A stretch of DNA of 64,000 nucleotides from a virus, in IMG/VR virus record IMGVR_UViG_3300047393_000086, positions 1 through 64,000 of that record; one strand, given 5' to 3'. The notes beneath the pieces were generated by a model that saw nothing but the letters and a program-made list of their open reading frames with translations, did no database searches and was not told the origin of the DNA. Within the stretch, counting starts at the first letter, position 1; each line of letters opens with the position of its first letter. The position numbers and the translations under genes were made by a program. Positions 3,066-59,617 of this stretch are shown one piece after another.

Positions 3066-3701
3066 TTATATGATTTTACGACCTAATCTCCATCCTTCAG
3101 GTATCATATCACCTTTATTGATTTTCTTAGATTCAATTTCGTTTGTTATCCAACACTTTCCATATTGAGAGTTATTAGATCCTTTTTGTTTAAGGGAATT
3201 AGATTCTCCTATTTTTCTTTTAGTTTCTTCTGAATGAGATTTACCAGTGAAATTATCATATTTTACATTTCCACTCTTATGGTTTTTAATAGATCCATTT
3301 CTTAATATTTCTTTCATTCTAATAGAATAGTCAATATTGCTCCATTTGTTATTTAACCATACTCTAGCGCCTTCTCGTAGGTTTAGACTGTGTGTATCGT
3401 CTGATATTCCTCCACCACCTCCTAATTGAAGATTCATACATAACTCTTCGTTAATCAATTCAACATTAACGATTTGTTTTTCTCTTTCTTTTAATGTTTT
3501 TCTATCAGGTAAGAATTCTAATATTTCGCAATCATGATTGTCTTTACCATGTTTATTGATTGAATACCATAATCTTTTGCCTGAACCAATATAACCATCT
3601 TCTAGATTATCTGTTGAATGCATTCCAATATAAAACTTGTTTGTAATAATACATGTAGTTTTATAAATGTAGTGATATTTTCTTCTTTGAGCTCTTTCCA
3701 T
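3066..3701 (-). CDS. GIY-YIG homing endonuclease
   Basis: This 211-residue protein starts with a GIY-YIG nuclease domain: HYIYKTTCIITNKFYIGMHST (residues 9-29) carries the Y..(10).YIG core. A glutamate-containing KEREKQIV helix follows. The C-terminal part has NUMOD3-like DNA-binding repeats (FTGKSHSEETKRKIGESN). The family cuts DNA at defined sites and propagates by homing (compare T4 Seg proteins). It lies in the tRNA island between tRNA-Ile and tRNA-Glu and is related in layout to the gene at 47410-48207. A GATATATAG box lies about 25 bases upstream. Confidence 0.88.
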   Translation of the reverse strand: MERAQRRKYHYIYKTTCIITNKFYIGMHSTDNLEDGYIGSGKRLWYSINKHGKDNHDCEILEFLPDRKTLKEREKQIVNVELINEELCMNLQLGGGGGISDDTHSLNLREGARVWLNNKWSNIDYSIRMKEILRNGSIKNHKSGNVKYDNFTGKSHSEETKRKIGESNSLKQKGSNNSQYGKCWITNEIESKKINKGDMIPEGWRLGRKII

Positions 3702-6539: not shown

Positions 6540-6563
6540 AATCCAGACTAAAAAATCTGGATT
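6540..6563 (-). terminator. hairpin terminator
   Basis: The stem AATCCAGA/TCTGGATT is followed on the minus strand by seven T residues. It ends the run of capsid-targeted genes. Near-identical copies lie at 12062 and 13302. Confidence 0.7.
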
Positions 6564-6583: not shown

Positions 6584-7126
6584 TTATAAATTCATAGTGT
6601 GCTTTGTTCCGTCTGCCATACTATAAACAATATGTAGCGGTTTCAGCGAATGCTCTTGTGAATTTAAAATCTTTAAATATTTACTCCCCTTTCCAGGTTT
6701 TAAGTATGCAACTGTCATGTGTGGATGATAATCCGGATAGTCTGACGAATATGGTAGTTCGCATAGAGATTTATTTGCAGCATGTAAATTATCTCCCTTA
6801 ATGTCAAATTTAAGTACATCAAATTTTTCATTTTCAAATAGGGAAATATTGTGGGCTAAACATTCTCCAAAATCAAAGCCATCCAGCTTTTCCCTTACCT
6901 GCTCTAACGATACATCTGGTTTTAAACCATATAATAGGGTACAGTGAGGTTCTGTTTCTAATCCATGACCTCCATTATTATCATCATGATAAATGTCTTC
7001 TGCACTAATTTCTTTATGAATTGCTTTCATCTGCGGAAAGTCAAAATATAACATTGCACAATTAGAATCGTAAGTTGGTTTTTCAGCTTCGTTCATGAAT
7101 TCTTCAAATAATTTTATTCTTTTCAT
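6584..7126 (-). CDS. 2H phosphoesterase-like internal protein with capsid-targeting leader
   Basis: The N terminus MKRIKLFEEFMNEA matches the T4 capsid-targeting sequence (MKTYQEFIAEA in the T4 internal proteins), with a likely prohead-protease cut after NE at residue 13. The body has two H-x-T motifs, HCT at 61-63 and HMT at 136-138, in hydrophobic contexts (HCTLLYG, HPHMTVAYL) typical of 2H phosphoesterases. Those enzymes act on 2'-5' oligonucleotides, cyclic phosphates or ADP-ribose derivatives. Inference: the mature enzyme is packed in the head and injected, perhaps to destroy a host signalling nucleotide or repair RNA ends. It is last of five adjacent leader-bearing genes. Confidence 0.75.
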   Translation of the reverse strand: MKRIKLFEEFMNEAEKPTYDSNCAMLYFDFPQMKAIHKEISAEDIYHDDNNGGHGLETEPHCTLLYGLKPDVSLEQVREKLDGFDFGECLAHNISLFENEKFDVLKFDIKGDNLHAANKSLCELPYSSDYPDYHPHMTVAYLKPGKGSKYLKILNSQEHSLKPLHIVYSMADGTKHTMNL

Positions 7127-7144
7127 ATCTATTTCTTTTATTAA

Positions 7145-7444
7145 TTATGCTCCAAAATCTAAGTCAAGTGTATCATCCTTTTCATCATCATAATCTCCAG
7201 TTAAATCAACATCTTTTAAATCTATACCTTCAACTTTAATCTTTGGTCTAAAATGACCATCTCCGTCAAAATATGCTTTAAAGCTTCTACCAGAACCTAC
7301 AGCACCACACCATTCCATGAATGCAAACATTTTTAAAAAATCGTCTGCAGTTTCTTGGTCAATATTAGAAATAGTTACATTTAATGTAACTGTTCCGTCT
7401 TCCGCTTCATTTAAGAAGTCTTCGAATACTTTTATATGTTTCAT
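7145..7444 (-). CDS. internal protein with capsid-targeting leader, unknown function (99 aa)
   Basis: The leader is MKHIKVFEDFLNEAE, with a predicted cut after residue 13. The mature part is about 86 residues, beta-rich (VTLNVTISNIDQETADDFLKMF), with a very acidic tail (DYDDEKDDTLDLDFGA). The acidic tail looks like a DNA mimic or a metal-binding tail, but this is only appearance. The gene shares one base with the neighbour at 7444. Confidence 0.6.
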   Translation of the reverse strand: MKHIKVFEDFLNEAEDGTVTLNVTISNIDQETADDFLKMFAFMEWCGAVGSGRSFKAYFDGDGHFRPKIKVEGIDLKDVDLTGDYDDEKDDTLDLDFGA

Positions 7445-8208
7445 TATTTCTTGTTTTCTTTTTTATCGTAATATTCCCAAACCTCATCTAATTGTTTAGG
7501 ATCTGCTAACCAGCTTTCCCACCAGCCTCCACCTTCTTCTTCAACTAAAGAACCATCTTTTAATTTACGATATTCTTTTTCTTTAACTGCAATTTTAAAA
7601 GTTTTTGGTGTAAATGGAAATGATTTAATATAATGCATACAACCAATTTGTTCTTCGCTGCCCTCAGTTATACTAACATGACCTGTAAAACCATAATCTT
7701 TTCCTTCAGGAATCCATACGATTGAATCTAAGTAATATGGTTGACCTTCTTTACCTTCTTTGAAAACCGAACTAAGTCTCATATTTTGAAAAGTTCCAGT
7801 GCCTTCTTCAGCGTCTTCGTATATTGAACAATCTGACCATTCTTCGTCTGTTCCCATGATTCCTTCTCCAAGTGGCTCCTGCGCTAATAATTTCTGTAAC
7901 ACTTGAACAATAACTGCACTCGTAAATGGAGCTGAGCCACCGCTTTGACCAGAATCAGCAAATTTCTTTACTAATGCCATTACTTCAGGCACAAACTCTT
8001 TAATAATTGGAGTCCCACCTTCATCTTTACCTTCAGCATTTTTCATCATAAGATCCAATTCAAATTGAGCCTTATCGACTAATCCTTCATTGATAGAATC
8101 AACAGAGATCATCTTAACACCTTCGTGTAAGAATTTAATTAGCTGAAATTTAACTTTGTTTTCGATTGATTCTGTTAAGAATTCTTCGAATAATTTAATT
8201 CTTTCCAT
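7444..8208 (-). CDS. internal protein with capsid-targeting leader, unknown function (254 aa)
   Basis: It starts MERIKLFEEFLTES, again leader-like with a predicted cut after TE. The N-terminal third is helical (VKMISVDSINEGLVDKAQFELDLMM). The C-terminal half has a beta-rich part (PYYLDSIVWIPEGKDYGFTGHVSITEGSEEQIGCMHYIKSFPF) and an aromatic, acidic tail. I do not recognise a family. The start overlaps the end of the acetyltransferase gene by 14 bases. Confidence 0.6.
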   Translation of the reverse strand: MERIKLFEEFLTESIENKVKFQLIKFLHEGVKMISVDSINEGLVDKAQFELDLMMKNAEGKDEGGTPIIKEFVPEVMALVKKFADSGQSGGSAPFTSAVIVQVLQKLLAQEPLGEGIMGTDEEWSDCSIYEDAEEGTGTFQNMRLSSVFKEGKEGQPYYLDSIVWIPEGKDYGFTGHVSITEGSEEQIGCMHYIKSFPFTPKTFKIAVKEKEYRKLKDGSLVEEEGGGWWESWLADPKQLDEVWEYYDKKENKK

Positions 8209-8554
8209 TTGTTGGGTATTTTACCATTGTATTTCTTGTTAAACTCTTGTCTGTGTTTTTTACAAAACCTAGACCTTTATAAAATTTCTCTAATCGTGAA
8301 ACTGATGTTGCCCCAAAATCTTTTGATGGAGTTAAATATATTGGTTTGTTTTGTGCATTTGCAAATGCAATTACCAAATCCATAACTTCAGTGCCAATTC
8401 CCTCTCCCCTTTTTTCTTTAGGTATTTCAATTCTTGTAAGTTCGACATAATTTGGGGTATTAAATACATCCAACTTAATTCCGAACTTACCCTCTAAATC
8501 TTTAAGGACCATTTCCTCATTTAAGAACTCTTCGAAAAGTTTAACCTTTTTCAT
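8195..8554 (-). CDS. GNAT acetyltransferase-like internal protein with capsid-targeting leader
   Basis: The leader MKKVKLFEEFLNEE (cut predicted after NE) is followed by a compact GNAT fold: the beta strand VELTRIEIPKEKRGEGIG has the acetyl-CoA-binding R-G-x-G-I-G signature at residues 49-54, then a helix TEVMDLVIAFANAQ, then the typical late strand-turn RLEKFYKGLGFV. GNAT enzymes move an acetyl group from acetyl-CoA to an amine. At 119 residues it is near the minimum size. Inference: packed in the virion and delivered to acetylate a host target early, in the way T4 delivers Alt. Confidence 0.75.
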   Translation of the reverse strand: MKKVKLFEEFLNEEMVLKDLEGKFGIKLDVFNTPNYVELTRIEIPKEKRGEGIGTEVMDLVIAFANAQNKPIYLTPSKDFGATSVSRLEKFYKGLGFVKNTDKSLTRNTMVKYPTNGKN

Positions 8555-9338
8555 CGATTTCTTTTATTTTTTTAATCGCCCAATCGACTCCTTCATCTCC
8601 ACCCCAAATTAACCAAGCAACATATCCATTATCTTTCCATGGTGTTGATTTATATTCTGGATTTATTTCTGAATTTTTTCTATGTCGATTAAATTGTGCC
8701 ATTCTACTAATAACATCTCGGGAAAGCTTTTCTCCTTTTGCCAATTGATTCGCTCTCTGCCATCCAACTGGAGTACCTGCAGTTACCTCATCGCGACCAT
8801 ATTCATCTCTCCAATCAAGTGCTTTCTTTGCGTTTGCTTTTGCAGCAGCTGGATAGTCATTATAAGTTTCTTCAGCCTCATTTAGGGACTCTTCAACTTT
8901 ATAAGGTAACTTTTCGTCATGTCCGCCATCTCTGACCTCTTTAGCCAAATCAGCATCTGCTTTTTGCCAAGTACCATCACCTTTTTCAAGGAATGCATTT
9001 ACACGGGCATAACCCCACTGTTCTTGTGTTGCTCCTGGATGGTGGCTAGAATTCCAAGCTCCCATTCCTCTGCGCATTACAGCTCTAATAATTCCGATCG
9101 GAACTCCAGATTCTTTTGCCTTTTTATCCAATGCTTTATTGATTGCAGCATTATCTAGTTCCTCTCTAGATGTTTCTTTTTCTTCTGCTTCTTGAACATG
9201 TTCTGGAGAATTATCGTGTCCACATTCGTGACAAATATAAACATCATCTCCACCCTCTTCGAGCCTCCATTTCCAGCCGCATTCATCGCACTTTATCTGG
9301 TTCGCCGAAAATTCTTCGAATGTTTTTAGTTTTTTCAT
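8541..9338 (-). CDS. zinc-ribbon multi-domain internal protein with capsid-targeting leader
   Basis: The protein starts MKKLKTFEEF, then has a zinc ribbon with cysteines at 17, 20, 36 and 39. A domain follows with VMRRGMGAWNSSHHPGATQEQW (residues 87-108, resembling DUF5824). After a linker containing SLNEAEE (151-157) comes a domain with WRDEYGRDEVTAGTPVGW and DNGYVAWLIWGGDEG. Both domains recur in phage structural and head proteins. The linker carries a second perfect leader-type cleavage motif (LNE|A), and VQE|A at 48-51 is a third. Inference: the protein is cut into two or three pieces in the prohead. It is first in the run of five. Confidence 0.65.
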   Translation of the reverse strand: MKKLKTFEEFSANQIKCDECGWKWRLEEGGDDVYICHECGHDNSPEHVQEAEEKETSREELDNAAINKALDKKAKESGVPIGIIRAVMRRGMGAWNSSHHPGATQEQWGYARVNAFLEKGDGTWQKADADLAKEVRDGGHDEKLPYKVEESLNEAEETYNDYPAAAKANAKKALDWRDEYGRDEVTAGTPVGWQRANQLAKGEKLSRDVISRMAQFNRHRKNSEINPEYKSTPWKDNGYVAWLIWGGDEGVDWAIKKIKEIDEKG

Positions 9339-9340
9339 AG

Positions 9341-9350
9341 ATTATATATC
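9341..9350 (-). promoter_or_regulatory. late-promoter-like box abutting a start codon
   Basis: GATATATAAT on the minus strand lies only two bases before the ATG at 9338. It matches the late box exactly, but the transcript would start at or inside the gene, so it may be non-functional or give a leaderless message. Confidence 0.35.
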
Positions 9351-9806: not shown

Positions 9807-10104
9807 CTTTCCATTCTTTTTTATATACTTTCTCCCAATGTGCTCTGTATTCTCTAACATTAATCATTTTAATGGTGTAAGACCATTCCGTATCGTCTTC
9901 AATAATCGTTATGAATAATGTGATTGTTGATGGAGGAACATATGAATCTTTAGCCCACTTAAATAATTTTTGAATATTTCCTTTCTGTCTTAATTTTTTA
10001 GAAAATGTTCTAATATCGCAATCATGCCATACAAAGGGATGGTAGCTCAAAATACTCGAGCTACCATGTCCTATATAACCTATATTAAATATGATTAGTT
10101 TCAT
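9790..10104 (-). CDS. hypothetical protein (104 aa)
   Basis: It starts MKLIIFNIGYIGHG, a predicted beta strand, and ends in a basic, aromatic stretch (HWEKVYKKEWKDVSRL). No known motif is seen. It overlaps the RNA-ligase stop by one base, so it is translated from the ligase message, and it overlaps the nuclease-like gene by 17 bases when that gene starts at 9806. Confidence 0.55.
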   Translation of the reverse strand: MKLIIFNIGYIGHGSSSILSYHPFVWHDCDIRTFSKKLRQKGNIQKLFKWAKDSYVPPSTITLFITIIEDDTEWSYTIKMINVREYRAHWEKVYKKEWKDVSRL

Positions 10105-11228
10105 TAGTGAGAATCTCCAACGTTATTCTTTTCACCATAAATCAAATAGTCTGGATTAATTACTTTCGCAACTTTTTGTCTTTCACCAGTAACATGTTTG
10201 ATTACAATTCCTTCATGCGGCACTTTAGTTCCTTCAATGAAATTATTAAATACAAAACCGTCTTGTACCTCTTGATTCCATAAACCATCATAAAGTACTT
10301 CAACGTGTGGAAGTTCTAATACATCTTCAATGATATATTGCGCCAAATCAGTATCTGCGTATCTACCATCGATTGTGATATCGAATCCAGCGAATTTGAT
10401 ATCGGTTAAACCATATTCGTAATTCTTTTGAATTCCTGCACCATAGATTTCTCCATATAGAACAAATCCTCCACCGATCTCTTCAGTATCTCTAGTTTTT
10501 ACAGCTTCCCATAATTTTTGTTTGATACCATAATCTTCGGCAATAGTTCTCCAAACATCAGTTGAATAGAATCCCTGAGAATCACTCCCTTTCTCCACGT
10601 TATGAGAACCATACACATATTCGTAACCAATCCATTCGTCAGCAAGTCCAAAGAATTTCTTTAATTTATCAAAGAACGATAATTTATTCTTACGAACAAT
10701 ACCGAAACGTGCATTTGTACCGTGTAATTTACGGGTAATTTGAACCCCATCCTCTTCTGTGAATAATCCAGCAACATTCTTTAAGTTCGGAAACTTATAG
10801 TAAACTGTAAAATTCGGGTTAGATTGGTAACGAATCTTTTTACCATTCGCTAATTGCACTTGTTTTACAGGTGGTTCGAACTTAGTAATACCAAGTTCAT
10901 CCATTAGGTCTCTACCCTCTCTAATACTTGATGCTTTGATATGAATGATTGGAATAATCAAACATTCTGAATAAACTCCACGTAATTTTACAGTACGTAC
11001 TCTTTGACCTTTACGTAAGTATGAAGTTACTCCCATTTTATCTGACAATTCCTGTGGAATTACAGCATCTGTAGTTGCAATTGCTACTAAAGCACCTTGG
11101 TTAAATTCACCTTTTTTAGTGACCGCATTCCACCCACCAACAATTGCTAATTCGATGTTATCAGCACCTTCAATTGGTCTGATTTCTGTGATTTGCCCTA
11201 CATAGCAAACTGAATTTTGATTTTCCAT
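10104..11228 (-). CDS. RNA ligase, DRB0094 (Rnl5-like) family
   Basis: The 374-residue length and two-part layout fit the DRB0094 RNA ligase family. An N-terminal OB-like domain (residues 1-115, with VTSYLRKGQRVRTVKLRGVYSECLI) precedes a nucleotidyltransferase domain. Motif I is K167-LHGTN, where the lysine takes AMP. YVYGSHN, FVLYGEIYGAGI, HEGIVIKH and KVAKVINPDYL fit motifs III to V. Such enzymes join RNA or nicked RNA/DNA ends using ATP. With the kinase at 12666 and phosphatase at 18030 it could repair tRNAs cut by host defence nucleases, as T4 Rnl1 and Pnkp do. Confidence 0.85.
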   Translation of the reverse strand: MENQNSVCYVGQITEIRPIEGADNIELAIVGGWNAVTKKGEFNQGALVAIATTDAVIPQELSDKMGVTSYLRKGQRVRTVKLRGVYSECLIIPIIHIKASSIREGRDLMDELGITKFEPPVKQVQLANGKKIRYQSNPNFTVYYKFPNLKNVAGLFTEEDGVQITRKLHGTNARFGIVRKNKLSFFDKLKKFFGLADEWIGYEYVYGSHNVEKGSDSQGFYSTDVWRTIAEDYGIKQKLWEAVKTRDTEEIGGGFVLYGEIYGAGIQKNYEYGLTDIKFAGFDITIDGRYADTDLAQYIIEDVLELPHVEVLYDGLWNQEVQDGFVFNNFIEGTKVPHEGIVIKHVTGERQKVAKVINPDYLIYGEKNNVGDSH

Positions 11229-12115: not shown

Positions 12116-12655
12116 TTACTTGAATATCTTTCCCACTTCTTCTTTACCAAATTTTGCCTCTAATGCTTCTATTGCCAGTTTTTTATCACTAGAACTTAAT
12201 GCCTTAAAGTTTGCCTCAATCATACTATTATTTTCAGTCGCACTTTTATATTTTCTACCATCATCAATATATTGAGCGTAGAAATCATATGAAAATGCAT
12301 ACTTTAAGAATTTCTCAAGTTCTGACATGTATTTCCCTTCTAATGTCTTTGTTAAATCAGCAACCTTAGTTTTCTTTTTGTTTAAATAGAATTCCCATGA
12401 ATCTGTTGTCATTCTCCATTTAGCAGTCATGAACATGTGAATAACATCACCTTCCGAAAGGGTCACTTGAAATTTAATACCATCACTTGTTGATTGGTCT
12501 TGAATATCTTTAATCCATTTTTCGTCATTAGTCGGTAGGACTCTAGAAACTACGAATTTAGCGTCTTGTAATAGTTCTTCAGGAGAACCCCACTTGCCTT
12601 TTTCTAATTCTGAATAGGTAGTGTATTTTTCAAAGGTCATTATTGCTTTTTTCAT
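12116..12655 (-). CDS. hypothetical protein (179 aa), possible weak capsid-targeting leader
   Basis: It starts MKKAIMTFEKYTTYSELEKGKWG, a loose match to the MKxxxxFEEF leader, so packaging is only possible. The rest is helical and basic/acidic, with KFQVTLSEGDVIHMFMTAKWRMTTDSWEFYLNKKKTKVADL in the middle. No family was recognised. It lies directly before a hairpin terminator. Confidence 0.55.
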   Translation of the reverse strand: MKKAIMTFEKYTTYSELEKGKWGSPEELLQDAKFVVSRVLPTNDEKWIKDIQDQSTSDGIKFQVTLSEGDVIHMFMTAKWRMTTDSWEFYLNKKKTKVADLTKTLEGKYMSELEKFLKYAFSYDFYAQYIDDGRKYKSATENNSMIEANFKALSSSDKKLAIEALEAKFGKEEVGKIFK

Positions 12656-36758: not shown

Positions 36759-37262
36759 ATGGCATACAACAATAAATATCCTAAGATTCGAAGAACAGGT
36801 GGACCGTATCCACGCAATAGATACGGCGTTTGTTATGAGGGTCTTTCAAGACAACAACGTAGATTATTGTTGGAAAATCCACTAATCAAGGAGAGGGCTC
36901 AAGATGATCAGTTTCTACATATCATTTTTGAAGTTTGTAAGTTTAAACACCAATCACATAAAGACAAATATTTTTATGATTGGTCGACTGGATGTTTTAT
37001 GAAGATTGAGGAACTTGAAGAGAGTTATGATACCATTGATTGGAAATGTGCTTTATCTGGAGAACCTATTCGTTCTAATATAAATAACTTTGATGCTGAA
37101 AACTTCGTGCATCCTGATTATCACGATACTCTTGGTGGTAAAACAGTAGACGGTAGAATTATTAAATCATCAGTTGCCTTCCAAAAACACGTAAAAAAAC
37201 TCCTATTGAATCAACAACAGGAGTTCTTAAAACTTGCCAAAAAGAATTCTAAATTACATTAA
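36759..37262 (+). CDS. hypothetical plus-strand protein (167 aa)
   Basis: The second clear plus-strand gene, diverging from gp44 and converging on the scaffold-like gene, whose end it overlaps by nine bases. The N terminus is basic (KIRRTGGPYPRNRYGV). LSRQQRRLLLENPLIKERAQ and a zinc-less C-terminal helical tail follow (FQKHVKKLLLNQQQEFLKLAKKNSKLH). No family was recognised. Its orientation is unusual in this phage. Confidence 0.6.
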   Translation: MAYNNKYPKIRRTGGPYPRNRYGVCYEGLSRQQRRLLLENPLIKERAQDDQFLHIIFEVCKFKHQSHKDKYFYDWSTGCFMKIEELEESYDTIDWKCALSGEPIRSNINNFDAENFVHPDYHDTLGGKTVDGRIIKSSVAFQKHVKKLLLNQQQEFLKLAKKNSKLH

Positions 37263-38444
37263 TCTAGAGAATCTTTCTTTAACACTTAAGTTTTGATATT
37301 TTGATTCATTCAAAGTATTTAAATATTCTGCCTTTTTAATCAACTCGTTATATTTTGAGTGTAATGCAGTTCCTTCAGAAACTTGCCAATCAAATTTAGA
37401 TTCAATTTCAGTAGCTAATTCATTTAATCTAACTGCTTTAGCTCTAATAACTAAAGATTCTTGTGGGGCTGATTTTTGCTTTAATGTTTCTAATTTTTTC
37501 TTCATTCCAGCAATTGCACCTTTAAGTATATTAATACCTTCTTTATTTTTATCTGGAGATTTTTCAGCATCTGCTAATTCACCTTCTTTAGTTGCGATTT
37601 CGTCTTGCAATTTTTTTATGTTTGGATCAACTTTTGTATCATCAGTAGCTTCGGTATCATCAGTAGCTTCGGTATCGTCAGTTGATTCAGAGTCGTTCTT
37701 TTTAGAAGCTGTTGTATCATCAGTTGATTCCTCGTCTTCGGTTTTTCCAGCTTTTTTATCTTTAGCTGCCTGAGCGTCAGCATCTAATTTAGCTTGAGCT
37801 GCTTTGTCGTCTTCTGCTTTTTTCTTTGCTTCTTTTTTATCATCTTCAGAAGGTTCAAGTTCTTTAATTGCTTCTTGATCTTCTTTATATTTTTGCTGAA
37901 GTTCAGCCATTTTTTCCTTATAAGTAGCTAATTTTTCAGGATCGTCTTCTAATCCTGAGGCTCTTTTAATAGATGCAATTTGTCCAGCAATTTTTTCGTT
38001 ATGAATTGCTTTACCTACAAGGTCTCCTTTTGAACTAAATTTAGCGTCAACCATTTTTTGAAGTTCAGCTGCTTGTTCTTTTGCTTGTTTTGCTTTTGCT
38101 GTAATTTTAGCTTTTTGCTGTGCGTCTGGTGCATCTGTTGCTGCTGCTTCCATATCAGTTACATTTAACTTGATTTTGTTAACTTTAGCTTGTGCCTTTC
38201 TGGCCTTTGGCATCCACCATAACCATTGCATTACAGTGCTTGGTGTAGCTGCATCTGCTTCATTAACTTCGTTAAAATCTTCGCCTTCTAATTCTTCCGT
38301 TAATTCTTTAGCAAGGGTTTCTAAAGAAGTTATAATAGTATCTACGTCATTAGAAATTGTTGGTGTTTCCGTAACAGTTGCTGTTGCTAATTCACCTTCC
38401 ATAATCATAGTATACCACGATTCAAATGTTTTTGTTGTTTTCAT
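37254..38444 (-). CDS. Lys/Glu/Ala-rich internal or scaffold protein with leader-like N terminus
   Basis: It starts MKTTKTFESWYTMIMEGE, similar to the capsid-targeting leader, and has many L/V-N-E sites (EVNE|A, RLNE|L, TLNE|S) that the prohead protease could cut. The middle is low-complexity, with DDTEATDDTEATDD repeats and long Lys/Ala/Glu coiled coil. These features match T4 core proteins that are digested to peptides in the head. It lies just downstream of the capsid gene with a late box at 38473. Confidence 0.6.
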   Translation of the reverse strand: MKTTKTFESWYTMIMEGELATATVTETPTISNDVDTIITSLETLAKELTEELEGEDFNEVNEADAATPSTVMQWLWWMPKARKAQAKVNKIKLNVTDMEAAATDAPDAQQKAKITAKAKQAKEQAAELQKMVDAKFSSKGDLVGKAIHNEKIAGQIASIKRASGLEDDPEKLATYKEKMAELQQKYKEDQEAIKELEPSEDDKKEAKKKAEDDKAAQAKLDADAQAAKDKKAGKTEDEESTDDTTASKKNDSESTDDTEATDDTEATDDTKVDPNIKKLQDEIATKEGELADAEKSPDKNKEGINILKGAIAGMKKKLETLKQKSAPQESLVIRAKAVRLNELATEIESKFDWQVSEGTALHSKYNELIKKAEYLNTLNESKYQNLSVKERFSRLM

Positions 38445-38472: not shown

Positions 38473-38482
38473 ATTATATATC
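38473..38482 (-). promoter_or_regulatory. putative late promoter (GATATATAAT)
   Basis: GATATATAAT occurs on the minus strand, 29 bases upstream of the internal/scaffold gene and after the capsid gene's terminator. Confidence 0.65.
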
Positions 38483-38550: not shown

Positions 38551-40005
38551 TTAAGCTAAAGTTAATAAGTTAGTTCCTCCATCAATAGTTATGTTAAATT
38601 TAACATATTGAGTTTCTGGGTGGAATCCAGCATCAACTAATGCGAATCTAGATTTAACAGCAACTTTAGGAGCCATAGTTCCTTCAGCGATTGTTTGTAC
38701 TGATTCAGCCATTAAGTAAGGCATAAATACAATACCAGGTCCGTTTCCGTCTCCTTTTCTACCAACTGCGATTGAATAATCATCCCAAGCCATTGTAGGG
38801 TCAGTGTAAACGTTAACTCCAGCTACAGATCCTAATGGGTAGATAGCTCCAGCAGCTTGTGCGAAAGTGTTTGCCATTGGGTTTGCAACGAAACCAGCGA
38901 TTGATTGTAAAACTGTAGCAGTTTGTGGTCCACATACTGCGAAGTTACCAGCTCCTCTTCTACCTCTGTTAGCAATTAAGTTAGCAGCAGCTAAAATTTG
39001 AGAAAGGATTCTTCTGTGTAATGATGGTAAAGTTTCACCACCAACTAAAGATCCAGCAGCAGGTAATTCTAAGTCAAAACCATTAGCTCCGAATGCTTTA
39101 GTTACGTTAGTAGCACCTAAAGTTCTGATTCTTCCTAAGATGTATTGGTTAATACCTTGAGTTAATTCATTAGTTAAAACAGCTTCAACTTGAGCAACAG
39201 CGTCAACTCCGAATTGTTTTAAATCTTGAACTTGTTCTCTTGTTACAGCAGCAGCAACTTGGAAAGTTTCAGCTGAAACTGATTTAGAGAATAAAGATAA
39301 TCCCATGATTTTGTCTGGAGTTTGTTCACCAGCTTCTCTTGAGAATGGAGAACCATTTTCGTCAGCAGCTACAAATCCTTTAACGTGATCTTCTAAAGCT
39401 TTTACTAATTCTACTTTTGGAGCAGCACCAGTAGTATCTAATACTGCGATTGCAGCAGATACAGAACCAGAGTTAGCACCAACTTCAGTAACTTTATAAA
39501 TATCTAAACCATCGATTCTTGAAGTACCTACAAATGTAAATAAGTAGTTATCTTGAGTTTCACCGTTGATTTCAGCTTTATCACCGTCAGTTTTAATGTA
39601 AGTTGGAGAAGTAGAACCAGCTACTTTACCACCTTCGTAAACGAAGTCTAAGTAAGATAATAATCCCATTGGACCAGCCATAGGAACTACAGGTACTAAA
39701 TCTAAACCGATAGTTTGAGCAGCAACTTGCATTGCTAATGGTAATAATGAAGGAGCTTTATCTCCAGAACCGTTAACAGTAGAAACTCCACCAGCACCGA
39801 TAGTACCTGGTAAAACTGTAGCGCCCATACCAAAGATGTTACCAGCAGCACCTAAAGTCATTGTAGATGCATCTTCGTATAATTTGTGGTTATGACAGTA
39901 TTCTGACATCCAAGCTAATTTGCTTGCGTCGTTGATACCTGTCGCAGATTCGATAATCGGAGACCACGTTGCTCTGATTTCTGATTCATTGATTAAATTT
40001 GCCAT
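38551..40005 (-). CDS. 23: major capsid protein (gp23-like)
   Basis: This 484-residue protein (T4 gp23 is 521) starts MANLINESEIRATWSPIIES, with PLAMQVAAQTIGLDLVPVVPMAGPMGLLSYLDFVYEGG (residues about 90-130), the signature of the T4-like capsid family. A HK97-type core follows. LYE|D near residue 42 is a candidate maturation cut, the analogue of the gp23 cleavage. Gene order (portal, core, protease, capsid) is as in T4. It has an exact late box at 40112 and a strong terminator. Confidence 0.95.
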   Translation of the reverse strand: MANLINESEIRATWSPIIESATGINDASKLAWMSEYCHNHKLYEDASTMTLGAAGNIFGMGATVLPGTIGAGGVSTVNGSGDKAPSLLPLAMQVAAQTIGLDLVPVVPMAGPMGLLSYLDFVYEGGKVAGSTSPTYIKTDGDKAEINGETQDNYLFTFVGTSRIDGLDIYKVTEVGANSGSVSAAIAVLDTTGAAPKVELVKALEDHVKGFVAADENGSPFSREAGEQTPDKIMGLSLFSKSVSAETFQVAAAVTREQVQDLKQFGVDAVAQVEAVLTNELTQGINQYILGRIRTLGATNVTKAFGANGFDLELPAAGSLVGGETLPSLHRRILSQILAAANLIANRGRRGAGNFAVCGPQTATVLQSIAGFVANPMANTFAQAAGAIYPLGSVAGVNVYTDPTMAWDDYSIAVGRKGDGNGPGIVFMPYLMAESVQTIAEGTMAPKVAVKSRFALVDAGFHPETQYVKFNITIDGGTNLLTLA

Positions 40006-40111: not shown

Positions 40112-40121
40112 GTATTATATA
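40112..40121 (-). promoter_or_regulatory. putative late promoter (GATATATAAT)
   Basis: GATATATAAT on the minus strand lies 107 bases upstream of the capsid start; the long leader holds no gene. Confidence 0.6.
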
Positions 40122-40176
40122 TCTTTATTATTTAGTTGAAAAATTTGATTTTTTCAAAAAAACACAAAAATAATGA

Positions 40177-42108
40177 TTATTTTCTAAATCTTTTTGCAAT
40201 TTCTGCACCAATTTCAGAAGCGTCATAACCTAAAGTATTAACTTCTTCAACAGCTGCTTCATTTACCATAGCGATTTTTTCCATTACTGGTGCAGTTTCT
40301 CTAAGGTCTCTAGTTTGCCAGAAGTTTGCAACTTGGTAAGAAGTTTCTAATCTGTGCATTTTTGATTGTGCAATGATTTGATTTTTCTTAGCTTCAGACA
40401 ATTTAGTCCAAGTTTCATGATATTCACTTGGCATCATTGAAATAACTGCAAGTGTAGTTTCATTTGCAGGTACAGCTCCCATTAATGAGTTAGCCCATAA
40501 TCCTAAGATTTGTCCTTCAGTTAAGTAACCTTTTCCTTCAACTGCATTGATTACTTTAGATTTTTCTTCAGATGTTAAAGCGTTAAATTCATTTACTTTC
40601 TCTTCAGAGATAAATTTAATAAATGATGGTCCTTCGTTTTTCTTGGCGTTAACTTTTTCAACCAATGCTTCTAATTTAGAAGAGATTGAATTTTTGTAAG
40701 CTTCCATAGCATCAACGTCTTTACCAGCAGCATCGCCTTCTCCAGCAAGTTCTAAATCTTTTGCTTTATCTTCAACTTCTTCAGCATCGTATTTTTTACC
40801 ATCAGCATCAATAACGTCTGGAGAAACGTCTTTAGTTTCATCTTTAATATCTTCAGCTGGTAATCCTGCATCTGTTCCGTCGTTTGCTTCTTTGATTTCT
40901 TCACCAGCAGCATCGCCTTCTCCAGCAAGTTCTAAATCTTTTGCTTTATCTTCAACTTCTTCAGCATCGTATTTTTTACCATCTGCGTCGATTACGTCTG
41001 GAGAAACGTCTTTAGTTTCATCTTTAATATCTTCAGCTGGAATTCCTGCTTCGTCTTCTAATAATAGGTTAGAGTTAACAGTTTCAGCAACGTACTCTGC
41101 ATATTCAGTTACTTTCTCTAAGTTCTCTCTTAAATATTCAGTATATTTAATTAAGTTCTCGTAAGAAGTAGAACCTTCATTATAAGATTCAGCTAAATAG
41201 TTAGTGTAATTTTTGATAGCATCAACGCTTTCTGCGATATGCTCAGAATATTGAATACCTTGATCCAATTTCTCTGCAAGACTTTCTGTGTAAGAAATAC
41301 CTTGGTCCGCTTTTTCAGCGATGTGTTCTGAATATGCGATTGATTCGTCTAATTTCTTAGCTAAATAATCAGTATACTCTTTTAATGTTTCTAATTGAGA
41401 ACTAGTTGACTCTGATTCTGTTAAAGAATTCATACCTTCTTTAATAGATTTGATTTCTTCAGAAAGATATTTAGAGTATTTATTAAAATCCTCAACCGTA
41501 ATAAATTTAGACTCTGCCATTTTTGTTTCGTTTATATTTTCGATTGTTTGTTTTTCATCTGTATTATTTATCTCGTAAATAAATAAGTCGTTTCCTTCAT
41601 TAACAAATCCATAAGATTCATTAACTCTTTTTAATTCAGCGTTCTCAAACCCAGGGTCTGCTACTAAATCATAAGTAAATAATTGTTTGATTTTTACAGT
41701 TCCATTAGATTCAACTGCACCAGCTGCTCTACTTGAAATTTGTAAAGGAACTCCAGCATCAACAAGAGCTTTTGCTTGTCTTCCAGCATCAGTATCTAAT
41801 AATCTGATACGTCCTTTAACTTGTTTGGTTGCTGTGTCGTAAGTAAGTTCTTCAATGATGTGTGAAACATTTTTTAAAGAAACGTCAAAAGTTTGTGGGT
41901 GATCTAATTCACCTAAAAGCTTTGATGATTTGATTTTTGCTTGTAGAGCTTCAATCTGTGGTAAGTACTCAGACTCAGTATAGATTCGGTTATTACGATT
42001 TTTCTTATCGATTTCTCCAAAGATACCTTCTAGAACATAGGTTCCACCTTCTTGTTTAAACTCTAACTCTGTAGATGATCTTTCTAGGATCAGTAAGTTT
42101 TTAGTCAT
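40177..42108 (-). CDS. 21: prohead protease fused to scaffold (gp21-gp22 fusion)
   Basis: The first 170 residues are a T4 gp21-type serine protease. KLLGELDHP (64-71) supplies the catalytic His, and LQISSRAAG (122-130) the Ser; QLFTYDLVADPGFENAEL follows. From about residue 197 the chain changes to a scaffold: MAESKFITVEDFNKYSKYLSEEI, then coiled-coil units around YxxYLAEK/YSEHIAE and a 60-residue acidic repeat present twice. In T4 these are separate genes 21 and 22. The Met at residue 197 (nucleotide 41520) may be an internal start giving scaffold alone. The protease would cut capsid, core and leader peptides. Confidence 0.88.
   Translation of the reverse strand: MTKNLLILERSSTELEFKQEGGTYVLEGIFGEIDKKNRNNRIYTESEYLPQIEALQAKIKSSKLLGELDHPQTFDVSLKNVSHIIEELTYDTATKQVKGRIRLLDTDAGRQAKALVDAGVPLQISSRAAGAVESNGTVKIKQLFTYDLVADPGFENAELKRVNESYGFVNEGNDLFIYEINNTDEKQTIENINETKMAESKFITVEDFNKYSKYLSEEIKSIKEGMNSLTESESTSSQLETLKEYTDYLAKKLDESIAYSEHIAEKADQGISYTESLAEKLDQGIQYSEHIAESVDAIKNYTNYLAESYNEGSTSYENLIKYTEYLRENLEKVTEYAEYVAETVNSNLLLEDEAGIPAEDIKDETKDVSPDVIDADGKKYDAEEVEDKAKDLELAGEGDAAGEEIKEANDGTDAGLPAEDIKDETKDVSPDVIDADGKKYDAEEVEDKAKDLELAGEGDAAGKDVDAMEAYKNSISSKLEALVEKVNAKKNEGPSFIKFISEEKVNEFNALTSEEKSKVINAVEGKGYLTEGQILGLWANSLMGAVPANETTLAVISMMPSEYHETWTKLSEAKKNQIIAQSKMHRLETSYQVANFWQTRDLRETAPVMEKIAMVNEAAVEEVNTLGYDASEIGAEIAKRFRK
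40723..41048 (-). repeat. tandem 180-base repeat in the scaffold region
   Basis: Two copies (about 40723-40868 and 40903-41048) code the same 48-residue acidic block (PAEDIKDETKDVSPDVIDAD and on to ELAGEGDAAG), with a period of 180 bases. The near identity shows a recent duplication. Confidence 0.85.
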
Positions 42109-42131: not shown

Positions 42132-42141
42132 ATTATATATC
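42132..42141 (-). promoter_or_regulatory. putative late promoter (GATATATAAT)
   Basis: GATATATAAT occurs on the minus strand, 24 bases upstream of the protease-scaffold start. Confidence 0.65.
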
Positions 42142-42177: not shown

Positions 42178-42519
42178 TTATACACCAGCTAATGGATCTT
42201 CCTCTTCTCCACCTTCAGCTTCTTTTTCAGCCTCTTTTTCTTTTTCGGCTTTCTCTTCTCTATAATCGTTAAAAAATTTAACTATAGTAAACATATCCTC
42301 TTCAGTAAAGGCAGTGTTTCCATATACTTCGTAGAAATATTCTTTAAATTCTTTTTCACTCTTACATGACATGATAGCACCTAAAATTTCAGTTGATTTA
42401 ATTTCTTTTCCTGAGTCAAGAGTAACATCATCAACTATTACTTTAGAATCTTCACCTGCTTCGATCGCGTCTTCTTTAAGTGAACCTGTGAATTCCTCAA
42501 ATGTTTTAATTATTCCCAT
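42178..42519 (-). CDS. prohead core protein (gp67/gp68-like by position) with leader
   Basis: It starts MGIIKTFEEFTGSLKEDAIEAGED, a close match to the capsid-targeting leader. The chain is acidic, and the C terminus is almost all Glu, Lys and Ala (EEKAEKEKEAEKEAEGGEEED). T4 gp67 and gp68 are small core proteins coded between portal and protease, the same place. It is probably digested in the prohead. Confidence 0.65.
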   Translation of the reverse strand: MGIIKTFEEFTGSLKEDAIEAGEDSKVIVDDVTLDSGKEIKSTEILGAIMSCKSEKEFKEYFYEVYGNTAFTEEDMFTIVKFFNDYREEKAEKEKEAEKEAEGGEEEDPLAGV

Positions 42520-42542: not shown

Positions 42543-44147
42543 TTACATTCCTCCCATCATTGCCATTGGATCTTCAGGCTCTGGTTTTTCAGCTTCTTTT
42601 GCCGCATTTCTTGCTTTATAAGCTTCGTTTGCCGCTTTATCATCTGGAGATAATTTAAGGTATCTATCAACTAAGAATTCCATATCGAAGTATGGTGATT
42701 CTTCCATAGTTAAAGGATCAGTCTTAACCAATGAATCTTTCATAGTTCCAATAAAATCAAGTCTTTTGCTCATAATTTCCATTTGCTTTAATTCAGCAAA
42801 CATATTTTCTTCATTAAATCTTAATGCAATTTGGGTTCTAAAACCTGCATCTTCTTTAAATTCAGGAAATTTAAGACACATTTGTAACCATAAAGGTTTA
42901 ATCAATATCTCTTGAAATGAGCTACGTAAACGATTAATAAACTTAGCAAATTTAATTTCATCTCTAATCATTCCATCAGCTTCCATTGCAAAATCTCCGC
43001 CTCCATCTTCATACATAAATCTAGAGTATGGAATTTTTGAAACTGCTTTAAGTTTATCTGAAAAATATTTTAATGATTCTGTGTCGCTTAATTCTGGACC
43101 ATCTCCACCAAGAGTTTCAATCTCTGGTTGTTCTCCGTCCTTACTAGGTAACCAATATTCTTTATTGAATTGTAACATTGGTTTTCCGTTCGTTGTAAGA
43201 GAAGCACTGTCCCAATCAAAATCAACAACCTCTTTATAGTTACTCATTAATTGAGAAAGCGATTGTTTTGCTCTTGTTTTAGATTTACCTCCAACTGGAA
43301 TAATAAATTTCATTCTATAAGAAGAGTTGGTAACAGCCCAAATAACTCTGGTATGCTCCATAATTCTCATTAAATTAAATGAACGGATTAATCTTTCAAG
43401 GTAAGAAACCCTTGACGCTGTAGTAATTGAACTATATGAAATGTATACAATTTGAGAATCGTATAATTTTCTTTCTTTTAATGGATCATCTTTAAACTGA
43501 ATCCATACTTTTTTACCATCTTCATGGTTATATCCTGGTACTAACGTAATTGGATCAATTTCCTTAAAACCAATAACTTCTGTCATCTCTGGATTATAAA
43601 TAATCTCGAATGATAAATAACCATCAATTAACCATTTTCTAAAGAAATACCATGCAGATTGGTCCATGTTAAAACCAAAATACTGGTAAATATCTCTATA
43701 TGCTTTATTTAGATATTTTTGAACTTCATCAGAAACTTCCATTCCGATAATTTCTGGATTGGCTATAAAGTTTTTATTATCGAATACGATTGATTCATCA
43801 CATAAAATATCTAAGATGTCTTCGATCTCATCATGCTGTGAAAACGCTCTAAGTTCATCTCTTTTACCTTTATAATTTTGGTCAAAGAATGGAATATTTT
43901 TACGCATTGTAGTATCAGCCATTGAAAGAGCTGCAAATGCGCCATACATATCATCATTGTCCAGTCCTAATGGATTCATTTGGCCGTAACCAATTGCATC
44001 TTCTACTGGACCAATTGCTTGAGATTGTCTAAGTACCAAATCATCATAATACATACCAAAAGAAGATAGCTTCTTTAGTGTATCACTTAAGACAAAAGGT
44101 TTTTTTCCAGTACTCAATGGACCATTTCTTTGTACAAATCCTGCCAT
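42543..44147 (-). CDS. 20: portal protein (gp20-like)
   Basis: The 534 residues match T4 gp20 (524). Family features include MAGFVQRNGPLSTGKKP, DEIEDILDILCDESIVFD, DGYLSFEIIYNP, EMTEVIGFKEIDPITLVPGY and SVFKISRFMYEDGGGDF-type segments (here VSKIPYSRFMYEDGGGDF). Twelve copies form the DNA gate and the nucleus of head assembly. A variant late box, GAATATATAAC, is about 20 bases upstream. Confidence 0.95.
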   Translation of the reverse strand: MAGFVQRNGPLSTGKKPFVLSDTLKKLSSFGMYYDDLVLRQSQAIGPVEDAIGYGQMNPLGLDNDDMYGAFAALSMADTTMRKNIPFFDQNYKGKRDELRAFSQHDEIEDILDILCDESIVFDNKNFIANPEIIGMEVSDEVQKYLNKAYRDIYQYFGFNMDQSAWYFFRKWLIDGYLSFEIIYNPEMTEVIGFKEIDPITLVPGYNHEDGKKVWIQFKDDPLKERKLYDSQIVYISYSSITTASRVSYLERLIRSFNLMRIMEHTRVIWAVTNSSYRMKFIIPVGGKSKTRAKQSLSQLMSNYKEVVDFDWDSASLTTNGKPMLQFNKEYWLPSKDGEQPEIETLGGDGPELSDTESLKYFSDKLKAVSKIPYSRFMYEDGGGDFAMEADGMIRDEIKFAKFINRLRSSFQEILIKPLWLQMCLKFPEFKEDAGFRTQIALRFNEENMFAELKQMEIMSKRLDFIGTMKDSLVKTDPLTMEESPYFDMEFLVDRYLKLSPDDKAANEAYKARNAAKEAEKPEPEDPMAMMGGM

Positions 44148-46554: not shown

Positions 46555-46564
46555 ATTATATATC
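46555..46564 (-). promoter_or_regulatory. putative late promoter (GATATATAAT)
   Basis: GATATATAAT on the minus strand lies 22 bases before the 253-residue gene. Confidence 0.65.
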
Positions 46565-56562: not shown

Positions 56563-56991
56563 TTATTTACTTCCTACTGATTTATCTTTAAATTTTATAT
56601 ATTTTCTAGCGACCATGAATCTAATAAATTCATAGATGTCTTTTGGAGCTTCTGCGGTACCATTAGAATCCGTAACACTAGCGATCCATTTACCGTCTTT
56701 AAACTGATAAGTCCATGTTGCGCCTCCGAATTTAGTTGTTAATATACCATCTTGTATTGATTTTTCTTTTACTTGAATACCAAGATCTCTTAATGCCGAT
56801 GCAGCATTTGTTAGAATTTCGGTAGAATACTCTGATGCATTTGAAATAACAGTTTGGTTATCTTTCCATTCTGCAGAAGCTCCAGTAGATCCGCTATATC
56901 TTCCAATAGATCTTCCATTTCCTGCTGCGGATTGAAGAGCCATGTCATTGGATTCATCAATAAATTGTTCAAATAGTTTAATGTGTTTCAT
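56563..56991 (-). CDS. internal protein with capsid-targeting leader, unknown function (142 aa)
   Basis: It starts MKHIKLFEQFIDESND, a clear leader with a cut predicted after DE at residue 13. The mature protein contains ALQSAAGNGRSIGRYSGSTGASAEWKDN and a beta-rich C terminus (FGGATWTYQFKDGKWIASVTDSNG). No family was recognised. It follows a second leader protein at 57010 and shares its promoter. Confidence 0.62.
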   Translation of the reverse strand: MKHIKLFEQFIDESNDMALQSAAGNGRSIGRYSGSTGASAEWKDNQTVISNASEYSTEILTNAASALRDLGIQVKEKSIQDGILTTKFGGATWTYQFKDGKWIASVTDSNGTAEAPKDIYEFIRFMVARKYIKFKDKSVGSK

Positions 56992-57009: not shown

Positions 57010-57345
57010 TTATTTTTCGTTAGCTCTACACCAGTTAAGTGCATCTTTAACAGTTTCTAATTCTTCGTCATATCCGCTTAAATCATAGATTCCAAGAATA
57101 GTTTCGCCATCATCATTTAAGTAGAATGAAAACTCTTCCATTTCTCCTTCGTGTCTATCTGCTTTTGATTCTAATCCATTTGCAAAATGTACAATATGTG
57201 GAAATTCTTCATCTTTGTCTAATCCCCAAACTACTTTTTCTACGTTTTTAGCTTTAGATAATTCTTTAAATAATTTAACAAGAATTTCTGGTTTTGGACT
57301 AGAAGCTTCTGTTACAAAATCTTCAAATAATTTAATATGTTTCAT
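57010..57345 (-). CDS. internal protein with capsid-targeting leader, unknown function (111 aa)
   Basis: It starts MKHIKLFEDFVTEASS, with a cut predicted after TE at residue 13. The mature part is small and acidic (FKELSKAKNVEKVVWGLDKDEEFPHIVHFANG, then EEFSFYLNDDGETILGIYDLSGY). No family was recognised. It is preceded by both a late box (57368) and a TATATTTAC box (57393). Confidence 0.62.
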   Translation of the reverse strand: MKHIKLFEDFVTEASSPKPEILVKLFKELSKAKNVEKVVWGLDKDEEFPHIVHFANGLESKADRHEGEMEEFSFYLNDDGETILGIYDLSGYDEELETVKDALNWCRANEK

Positions 57346-57367: not shown

Positions 57368-57377
57368 GTTATATATC
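57368..57377 (-). promoter_or_regulatory. putative late promoter (GATATATAAC)
   Basis: GATATATAAC on the minus strand lies 23 bases before the leader-protein gene at 57010. Confidence 0.55.
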
Positions 57378-58495: not shown

Positions 58496-59587
58496 TTACT
58501 TAATATTAAAGAAGTATTTATATCCATCTTTTGCCTTAGGATCTGTTAATACAGTATAATCCATTGGCCATTGAGAAGATTCAATTTCTTTTTTGAATTT
58601 TGGATAGTAATTTTGGTGGCCAGGTACTACATATTTTAAATAAATATCCTCTAAGAATTCGTTGTCTAAAGATTCTCCATAAAAATCTTCGTACATTGCT
58701 TTGTAAACCTCACACATTTTAACACTTCCAAGTCCAGTTGCAGATGATGTTTCCATAATCCACATTTTTCCTTTTTTATCTACAACAATATCTAACGCCC
58801 ATAAATCTAGGTCTAAGAACGTTTTAATATCTTTACAGATTGACATTACATTTTCAATAAATTCAGGATCTACTTTGTTTTGGTCTTGATAAACATAAGT
58901 AAAACTGATTTTCTCTTCTGCTGTTTTTGTTTTAATTGAACGATCGTCCTCAATTCTCGGTACTCTTTCATTAATAACAAAAATCTTGTCTCTACACAAC
59001 ATTACTCTGTATTCTCTTGCAAAATCTATAAATTGACAGAATAAATCAAATTCGTCTTTGCTATCTTCTAATTCTTTGGCGCTATCAAACTTTTGAATTC
59101 CTAGTCCGCTATGTCCATCTTTTATTTTTGCAATTACTGGAAAACCAACATCTCCATTAATAGCCTCTTCTTTTGTAAAAACAGTATTTGGAAGCCAGTC
59201 AAATTTTGATGATGCTTTTGCAAATTTTACTTTGTCTCCTGAAAGTTGAAGCAATTCTCTTTTATTATAAAGATTGTCATTTTTAATTCCTTTATTTTTT
59301 AAAAACATCTCTGCTTCAGGGTGATTTGGTCCTCCAAATCCTCCATAATAAAGAATTGGTACATCAGAAGGTACCGAAACTTTATCATCTTCGAAATCTT
59401 CTTTTGTTGCGTAATTTAAGAATAGGTTACCTTTTGCGGCAATATTGTATTTCTTTTCGCGGCCATTAACATCACCTGAAGTTGCATGAATGTCGTTTGA
59501 CATCATAATCCATGCTACTTTTTTTGCGTATTTGTTTTTAAGATTTTCTTTGTATACGAATTCTTCAAAAAGCTTAATTGGAATCAT
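58496..59587 (-). CDS. ATP-grasp ligase with capsid-targeting-type N terminus
   Basis: It starts MIPIKLFEEFVYKEN, matching the leader of the internal proteins. The rest is an ATP-grasp fold: FPVIAKIKDGHSGLGIQKFDS (residues about 153-173, the glycine-rich ATP loop), FDLFCQFIDFAREYRVMLC, and LWALDIVVDKKGKMWIMETSSATGLGSV with the metal-binding Glu. ATP-grasp enzymes link a carboxylate to an amine using ATP, as in RimK and peptide ligases. It stops four bases before the dehydrogenase start, so both enzymes are made together. Confidence 0.78.
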   Translation of the reverse strand: MIPIKLFEEFVYKENLKNKYAKKVAWIMMSNDIHATSGDVNGREKKYNIAAKGNLFLNYATKEDFEDDKVSVPSDVPILYYGGFGGPNHPEAEMFLKNKGIKNDNLYNKRELLQLSGDKVKFAKASSKFDWLPNTVFTKEEAINGDVGFPVIAKIKDGHSGLGIQKFDSAKELEDSKDEFDLFCQFIDFAREYRVMLCRDKIFVINERVPRIEDDRSIKTKTAEEKISFTYVYQDQNKVDPEFIENVMSICKDIKTFLDLDLWALDIVVDKKGKMWIMETSSATGLGSVKMCEVYKAMYEDFYGESLDNEFLEDIYLKYVVPGHQNYYPKFKKEIESSQWPMDYTVLTDPKAKDGYKYFFNIK

Positions 59588-59607: not shown

Positions 59608-59617
59608 ATTATATATC
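59608..59617 (-). promoter_or_regulatory. putative late promoter (GATATATAAT)
   Basis: GATATATAAT on the minus strand lies 21 bases before the ATP-grasp start. Confidence 0.65.

Follow-up and report, generated by a model that had tools for sequence, protein, structure and literature searches.

A shared N-terminal leader on five adjacent phage genes: a probable capsid targeting sequence for packaged counter-defence proteins

Why would five consecutive phage genes, whose products are otherwise unrelated, all begin with the same short peptide? This is the question raised by positions 6584-9338 of the IMG/VR virus record IMGVR_UViG_3300047393_000086, where five minus-strand open reading frames (ORFs) run from 9338 down to 6584, overlapping or with short gaps. 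We analysed the first 64 kb of this 77-kb record (the window), and the explanation that fits best, to which we assign a probability of about 0.83, is that the peptide would be a leader of the kind known in phage T4 as a capsid targeting sequence (CTS), and the five genes an operon for counter-defence proteins that are packaged in the phage head and injected into the host. The genes are as follows.

8541..9338, minus strand: cargo gene 1, 265 residues, N-terminus and leader MKKLKTFEEFSANQ; leader codons 1-13 at 9300..9338
8195..8554, minus strand: cargo gene 2, 119 residues, N-terminus MKKVKLFEEFLNEE, leader MKKVKLFEEFLNE; leader codons 1-13 at 8516..8554
7444..8208, minus strand: cargo gene 3, 254 residues, N-terminus MERIKLFEEFLTES, leader MERIKLFEEFLTE; leader codons 1-13 at 8170..8208
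7145..7444, minus strand: cargo gene 4, 99 residues, N-terminus MKHIKVFEDFLNEA, leader MKHIKVFEDFLNE; leader codons 1-13 at 7406..7444
6584..7126, minus strand: cargo gene 5, 180 residues, N-terminus MKRIKLFEEFMNEA, leader MKRIKLFEEFMNE; leader codons 1-13 at 7088..7126

That five ORFs with mutually unrelated mature parts share an N-terminal leader, as the original prediction had it, is confirmed. On a 13-position profile built from the window's own leaders, the five score 25-36 bits (12-30 bits when each is left out in turn) against a top score of 6.5 bits among 3,638 N-termini of reversed sequence, which rules out chance similarity. The consensus first proposed, MKxIKxFEEFxNE, holds only approximately, since one leader has TE at its end and that of the zinc-ribbon protein (cargo gene 1) has FEEF but SANQ, without the glutamate, hydrophobic-x-E terminating the other four. 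The set is also larger than five adjacent genes, with seven more leader genes in the 77-kb record, which start at 42519, 56991, 57345 and 59587 in the window and at 70144, 73398 and 73726 in the remainder.

Comparing N-termini across related phages, which had been proposed as a check, reveals the same leader in 17 related records, with a constraint on hydrophobic-x-E. At a threshold of at least 12 bits, these records hold 147 leader proteins, which fall into approximately 65 families when their mature parts are compared, and at a threshold of at least 8 bits there are 9 leader genes in G006, 15 in G004, 16 in G005 and 28 in G009, while a strict DNA pattern of the leader finds at least 119 stretches in IMG/VR. 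Identity between families is 58% in the leader and 7% in the following 12 residues. Four positions stand out among the 147 proteins, that is, F/Y7 (146/147), F/Y10 (147/147), I/L/V11 (approximately 82%) and E13 (115/147, or 78%), and hydrophobic-x-E is found at positions 11-16 in 127. In the open-access literature, we found no paper describing this leader. It is not common to all T4-like phages of Bacteroidota, a possibility ruled out by its absence from 150 kb of Flavobacterium phage MaF61.

What this peptide might do is best understood by comparison with T4, in which tests with amber suppressors have shown that CTS positions 4 and 7 are important for targeting, and positions 8 and 10 for processing (PMC9026906). 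When the leader is aligned with T4 MKTYQEFIAE on the final glutamate, F/Y7, F/Y10, I/L/V11 and E13 correspond to these four positions. The likeness is nevertheless partial, not near-identity as originally claimed: the internal proteins IPII and IPIII of T4 start with MKTYQEFIAEA, and IPI starts with MKTFKEFTSTTTPVSTITEA in the T4 record. The IPI cut site, MKTFKEFTSTTTPVSTITE|A, provides a parallel for leaders that lack E13 and have a later hydrophobic-x-E. Related sites abound in the head proteins of the window, since hydrophobic-N-E occurs five times in the 643-residue protease-scaffold and four times in the 396-residue protein encoded after the capsid gene, against eight in the 20 other core proteins (9,258 residues), and in many relatives the protease domain ends at NAELKRVNE, FVNE or ENINE. 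In addition, residues 1-15 of the 180-residue product of cargo gene 5, that is, the leader region, are disordered in its structural model. Residue constraints, cut-site logic, a leader-bearing protein at the gp67 position, leader exchange and a promoter motif common with structural genes (the last three are considered below) all favour the same reading, namely that the leader is very probably a CTS of the T4 kind, cut by a T4-type head protease.

Fused cargo proteins also bear on the cut site. The 265-residue product of cargo gene 1 consists of a zinc ribbon, a DUF5824 domain and a C-terminal third domain, modules that relatives encode as separate proteins, each with a leader. It contains HVQE|AEEKETSREELDN and ESLNE|AEETYNDYPAAA, with predicted cuts after E50 (9189-9191) and E154 (8877-8879), and in comparison with G006:40579, G008:74935 and G004:3307, the same mature starts are found behind full leaders, MERIKLFEQFLTE|KEEKETSRAALDN in G006 and MKHIKLFEEFLNE|AEETYNDYPAAA in G008. 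Another fusion follows the same pattern in G009:45245 and G005:78970 (VETRQLYE|STINNF and FINE|STINNF), the former having LYE in place of the usual NE at the same mature boundary. Judged from these alignments, fusion cargo retains the predicted cut site and not the targeting half of the leader. At the start of cargo gene 1 the reverse is seen, as FEEF is kept and the glutamate is absent in 4/4 homologues (SVNQ, TANQ and SANQ in three others besides the window protein), which suggests that the zinc-ribbon protein may be targeted without leader removal; T4 mutants with aspartate at position 10 are targeted in this manner (PMC9026906).

Which proteins would be delivered? The product of cargo gene 3 is a homologue of Tad3 (type I Thoeris inhibitor), matching Pfam PF25185 with an E-value of 4.2e-19 (68.9 bits for a cut-off of 27), and its residues 45-249 align to residues 5-190 of the 194 in Tad3 structure PDB 9b7d (E 1.8e-35). 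A conserved SINE|G at residue 41 (E41, 8086-8088), where the Tad3 domain begins, is likely to be a second cut site. Together with the internal sites in the zinc-ribbon/DUF5824 fusion, this implies that one gene could deliver two or three mature pieces. The leader is present in 6/6 near Tad3 homologues, and a distant homologue, in Vibrio phage phi50-12 (Schitoviridae), is leaderless. A structural model of the window protein was too poor for use, with a predicted local distance difference test (pLDDT) score of 37. We also considered the Tad3 homologue of Klebsiella phage Eowyn, whose start MSYQSYFLSEA resembles the T4 CTS, and set it aside, as there is no second such start in the first 100 kb and the resemblance may be due to chance.

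The product of cargo gene 5 had been called a 2H phosphoesterase, which stands on Pfam matches above cut-offs to 2_5_RNA_ligase2 and Acb1, and on an HxT/HxT tetrad (H61, T63, H136 and T138) invariant in 37 homologues. The Acb1 match (PF23474) is a narrow pass, at 28.7 bits for a cut-off of 27. In a structural model with a pLDDT of 88, the closest folds are Acb1 and the poxvirus cyclic GMP-AMP (cGAMP) nuclease, Acb1 ranking first (E 4.4e-6, template modelling score 0.48-0.59) with cyclic phosphodiesterase (CPDase) and Usb1 folds close behind. This protein resembles Acb1, the inhibitor of the cyclic oligonucleotide-based antiphage signalling system (CBASS). It is possible, although we regard it as the less probable option, that the leaders are packaging tags and this enzyme is a 2H phosphoesterase for RNA repair instead of a nuclease of immune signals: its fold matches Usb1, LigT and CPDases too, its E-values to Acb1 are modest and there is a gene of the RNA ligase family at 10104-11228. 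What tips the balance towards the Acb1-like assignment is that Acb1 proteins and the poxvirus cGAMP nuclease are the top fold and sequence matches, that the Pfam Acb1 cut-off is passed and that the gene is in the same operon as Tad3. Across the 37 Acb1-like homologues, which have approximately 31 different leaders, the leader end is largely kept, with E in 34 and a hydrophobic residue two positions before it in 35. The idea that leaderless homologues are confined to phages without a T4-type head was abandoned, since Acb1 homologues of the MNRHVEKGC type are found in T4-type records. In T4 itself (L398:13591-14410), ipI adjoins 57B, the Acb1 gene.

The acetyltransferase proposed for cargo gene 2 corresponds to a GNAT match, but a weak one (E 6e-4) below the Pfam cut-off; homologues with leader are found in G006 and G029. 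Cargo gene 4 encodes an acidic protein of phrog_10928 (unknown). A role in host defence or host metabolism had been suggested for the set. The presence of a Tad3 homologue and the likeness of the 2H enzyme to Acb1, neither of them named in that prediction, strengthen the case for defence, and nothing points to metabolism.

Among the proteins encoded in the window are the portal, large terminase and tail sheath, a head maturation protease and a major capsid protein of the T4 type, the head genes being arranged as follows.

42543-44147: portal
42178..42519, minus strand: acidic leader-bearing protein MGIIKTFEEFTGSLKED, flanked by portal and head protease (T4 gp67/gp68 position)
40177..42108, minus strand: head maturation protease fused to scaffold, with conserved VNE/INE junction sites (phrog_207, E 2.5e-40), the presumed leader-cutting enzyme
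38551..40005, minus strand: T4-type major capsid protein (phrog_138, E 2.8e-41)
37254..38444, minus strand: product of the gene that follows the major capsid gene, with variant leader TKTFESWYTMIME, many hydrophobic-N-E sites, candidate core component

The order portal, small acidic protein, protease and capsid matches T4 20-67-68-21-22-23, here with protease and scaffold fused into a single 643-residue protein, in which an acidic stretch is repeated (AGIPAEDIKDETKDVSPDVIDADGKKYDAEEVEDKAKDLELAGEGDAAG). Looked at as a possible prohead core protein, the product at the gp67 position bears the leader and has no similarity to gp67. The nearest annotated capsid proteins are those of huge uncultured phages, Prevotella Lak phages and phages of Tenacibaculum, Sphingomonas and Flavobacterium, from which we infer a probable host in the Bacteroidota. 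Elsewhere in the window, a family B DNA polymerase is apparently split between ORFs 54461-55657 (resembling the C-terminal half) and 62379-63776 (resembling the N-terminal half), with ribonucleotide reductase genes and leader genes in between, and ORFs 3066-3701 and 47410-48207 resemble GIY-YIG homing endonucleases.

Expression of the five genes may be coupled to that of structural genes by GATATATAA, a late-promoter-like motif common to head and tail genes. The relevant features, including leader genes with this motif upstream, are the following.

9342..9350, minus strand: GATATATAA in front of the five genes
6540..6563, minus strand: intrinsic terminator at the 3' end of the five-gene operon (z = -4.0)
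9342-9350, 23492-23500, 25597-25605, 28258-28266, 38474-38482, 40115-40123, 42133-42141, 46556-46564, 57369-57377 and 59609-59617, coding strand: all GATATATAA sites in the window
56563..56991, minus strand: leader protein MKHIKLFEQFIDES
57010..57345, minus strand: leader protein MKHIKLFEDFVTEA, GATATATAA upstream
58496..59587, minus strand: leader protein MIPIKLFEEFVYKE, ATP-grasp-like, GATATATAA upstream

With the terminator at 6563-6540 and GATATATAA at 9350-9342, the operon holds exactly the five genes. All 10 copies of the motif in the window are on the coding strand (shuffles have a mean of 1.7 and a maximum of 7), upstream of the sheath, tube, capsid, protease-scaffold and post-capsid genes, of two others (46533 and 23449) and of the leader genes or operon heads at 9338, 57345 and 59587, and none was seen directly before recognised replication genes in the window. 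In the 17 records, it precedes 23/81 leader operon heads, 112/1,273 other ORFs and 0/50 internal leader genes (p = 1e-6), the non-leader genes in G009 including protease, tail tube, tail sheath and fibre-like genes. We regard GATATATAA as a candidate for the late promoter in this group of phages. The T4 late promoter TATAAATA was not found upstream of these genes on the coding strand, and sigma-70 sites are no more frequent than expected by chance.

Three further proteins are worth recording. In G009, a 913-residue protein (L108:2122-4860) starts with MNFDQFLNESS and has GATATATAA upstream, and is a possible large packaged protein; in G019, a 430-residue protein, apparently an ATP-dependent DNA ligase (L128:3421-4710), has the leader-like start MKELKLTQEFVNES and is either packaged or a chance resemblance; and relatives in G019 and G024 of window ORF 12116-12655 (MKKAIMTFEKYTTYSELEKGKWGSPEE) begin with MKHLMTFEKYYAYND, a weak leader variant with MTFEKY.

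The scenario that emerges would unfold as follows. The five genes would be transcribed late as one operon, together with head and tail genes, from the shared motif. As the prohead assembles, the leader would bind the scaffold core through its aromatic/acidic half (F/Y-E-x-F/Y), upon which the phage's own head protease would cut behind a hydrophobic-x-E, either the one ending at residue 13 or one further on, releasing the mature protein in the capsid. Mature proteins would then accompany the DNA into the host and take effect ahead of all phage gene expression, the Tad3 homologue by inhibiting Thoeris and the Acb1-like 2H enzyme by destroying the cyclic-nucleotide signals of CBASS-type systems, as their homologies would predict. 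Packaging and trimming of leader proteins is very probable; that at least some of these proteins are injected and act in counter-defence is also probable, to a clearly lesser degree.

Several observations weigh against this scenario: (i) no virion proteomics for this lineage was found in the literature, (ii) the protein at the gp67 position has no sequence match to T4 gp67, (iii) E13 is absent in 11/65 families, most of which have a later hydrophobic-x-E and a few none, (iv) GATATATAA is found at just 28% of leader operon heads, (v) similarity to T4 Acb1 is low overall and limited to the HxT region, (vi) leaderless Acb1-like genes occur in T4-type phages too, so that this cargo does not always need to be packaged, (vii) only about one fifth of the 65 leader families match a Pfam domain, most cargo having no known function and (viii) a few enzymes with plausible in-cell roles (DNA ligase, G019:174421) have a leader-like start.

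A different, rather unlikely, interpretation is that the leader does load the prohead and that the majority of the cargo serves the core, as structural material or to organise DNA, with the Tad3 and Acb1-like proteins as exceptions. T4 IPIII indeed affects head assembly (PMC9026906), the roughly 80% of families without a known domain leave room for such roles, and the gp67-position core protein bears the leader. Against this, cargo turnover is fast, 41/65 families being found only once in the 17 records, which is not the behaviour of structural proteins; in T4, the corresponding proteins, Ip1-3, are all inhibitors of type IV restriction enzymes (PMC12373910); and the two counter-defence homologues are side by side in the operon and kept together in G006. 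It is much more improbable that the leader directs proteins elsewhere (tail, baseplate or an intracellular compartment) and stays uncut. Although the lack of virion proteomics in the literature and the few leaders without glutamate would allow it, the constraint falls on hydrophobic-x-E and ends exactly there, fusions retain the cut site and drop the targeting half, the same tripeptide is found at protease/scaffold junctions, and the protein beside the head protease carries the leader. The notion that recent 5' duplication or gene conversion gave rise to the common N-terminus as a by-product, or that it is an expression element in DNA or RNA, which could draw on the close likeness of leaders within one genome and on AAA enrichment at their lysine codons, can be dismissed because synonymous codons for F, E, N and I vary at the rate predicted by codon usage at most leader positions, so that the peptide is what is conserved, and because distant lineages have different leaders with the same end rule.

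Other phages have shared leaders of their own. In the Acb1-like loci of other phages (L360, L341 and LR745206), neighbouring genes share a local leader, which in L341 is MNLQENIxRIxQMM. In L360, MIKLKxLxxE is found on five adjacent genes, one of them for an 863-residue protein with an Acb1-like domain at its start, and in L395 (LR745206.1, a huge phage of 634 kb), at least seven neighbouring genes have the leader MK(H/Y)LKKFNES, the neighbour with the Acb1-like domain beginning with MKLKKYKQFIKES. We lean slightly towards the view that large T4-like phages generally use lineage-specific detachable capsid leaders as a trafficking code, in which 10-30 unrelated proteins are tagged per lineage, the set is injected as pre-made counter-defence, and cargo is swapped between lineages by leader exchange with hydrophobic-x-E kept. 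If so, the leader in any genome would list the proteins injected by that phage. This would matter since phage-injected proteins are mostly unknown and hard to measure, whereas a short peptide would let the injected set be read from sequence. The approximately 65 families, most without known function and several beside established immune inhibitors, are candidates for counter-defence proteins acting in the first moments of infection. If inhibitors of Thoeris and CBASS came with the particle, this would account for the ability of a phage to beat defences that fire before its genes are expressed. Leader swapping, moreover, hints at a natural system of tags by which phage heads could deliver proteins.

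How does this system compare with those already known? Many packaged proteins that are trimmed by the head protease and injected are also a feature of phiKZ and SPN3US, with their inner-body and ejected head proteins, although these phages belong to a different lineage; phiKZ has been reported to inject Tad1, a CBASS/Thoeris sponge (review PMC13282480). As regards individual cargo, Tad3 (PF25185, PDB 9b7d) is homologous over residues 45-249 of the window protein, the solved chain being without its leader and 30-residue linker, and Acb1 (PF23474; FBB1, T4 gene 57B) is the best fold match of the 2H protein and shares its HxT/HxT, T4 57B having no leader terminated by hydrophobic-x-E before the domain. 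The different leader, far more numerous cargo, presumably trimmed fusions and counter-defence families set this system apart, the last not having been reported as packaged in this way in the papers that could be searched. The closest parallel is the CTS of T4 IPI-III, likewise a short N-terminal tag on unrelated proteins, with an aromatic-x-x-F targeting half, a hydrophobic-x-E cut site, a T4-type protease, the same core gene order and counter-defence cargo, Ip1, Ip2 and Ip3 blocking distinct GmrSD enzymes (PMC12373910). Compared with T4, the leader here has 13 residues instead of 10, with MKxIKL in front, and is found on up to 28 proteins per genome, the cargo includes Tad3 and Acb1-like families, fused cargo has internal cut sites, and protease and scaffold are one polypeptide.

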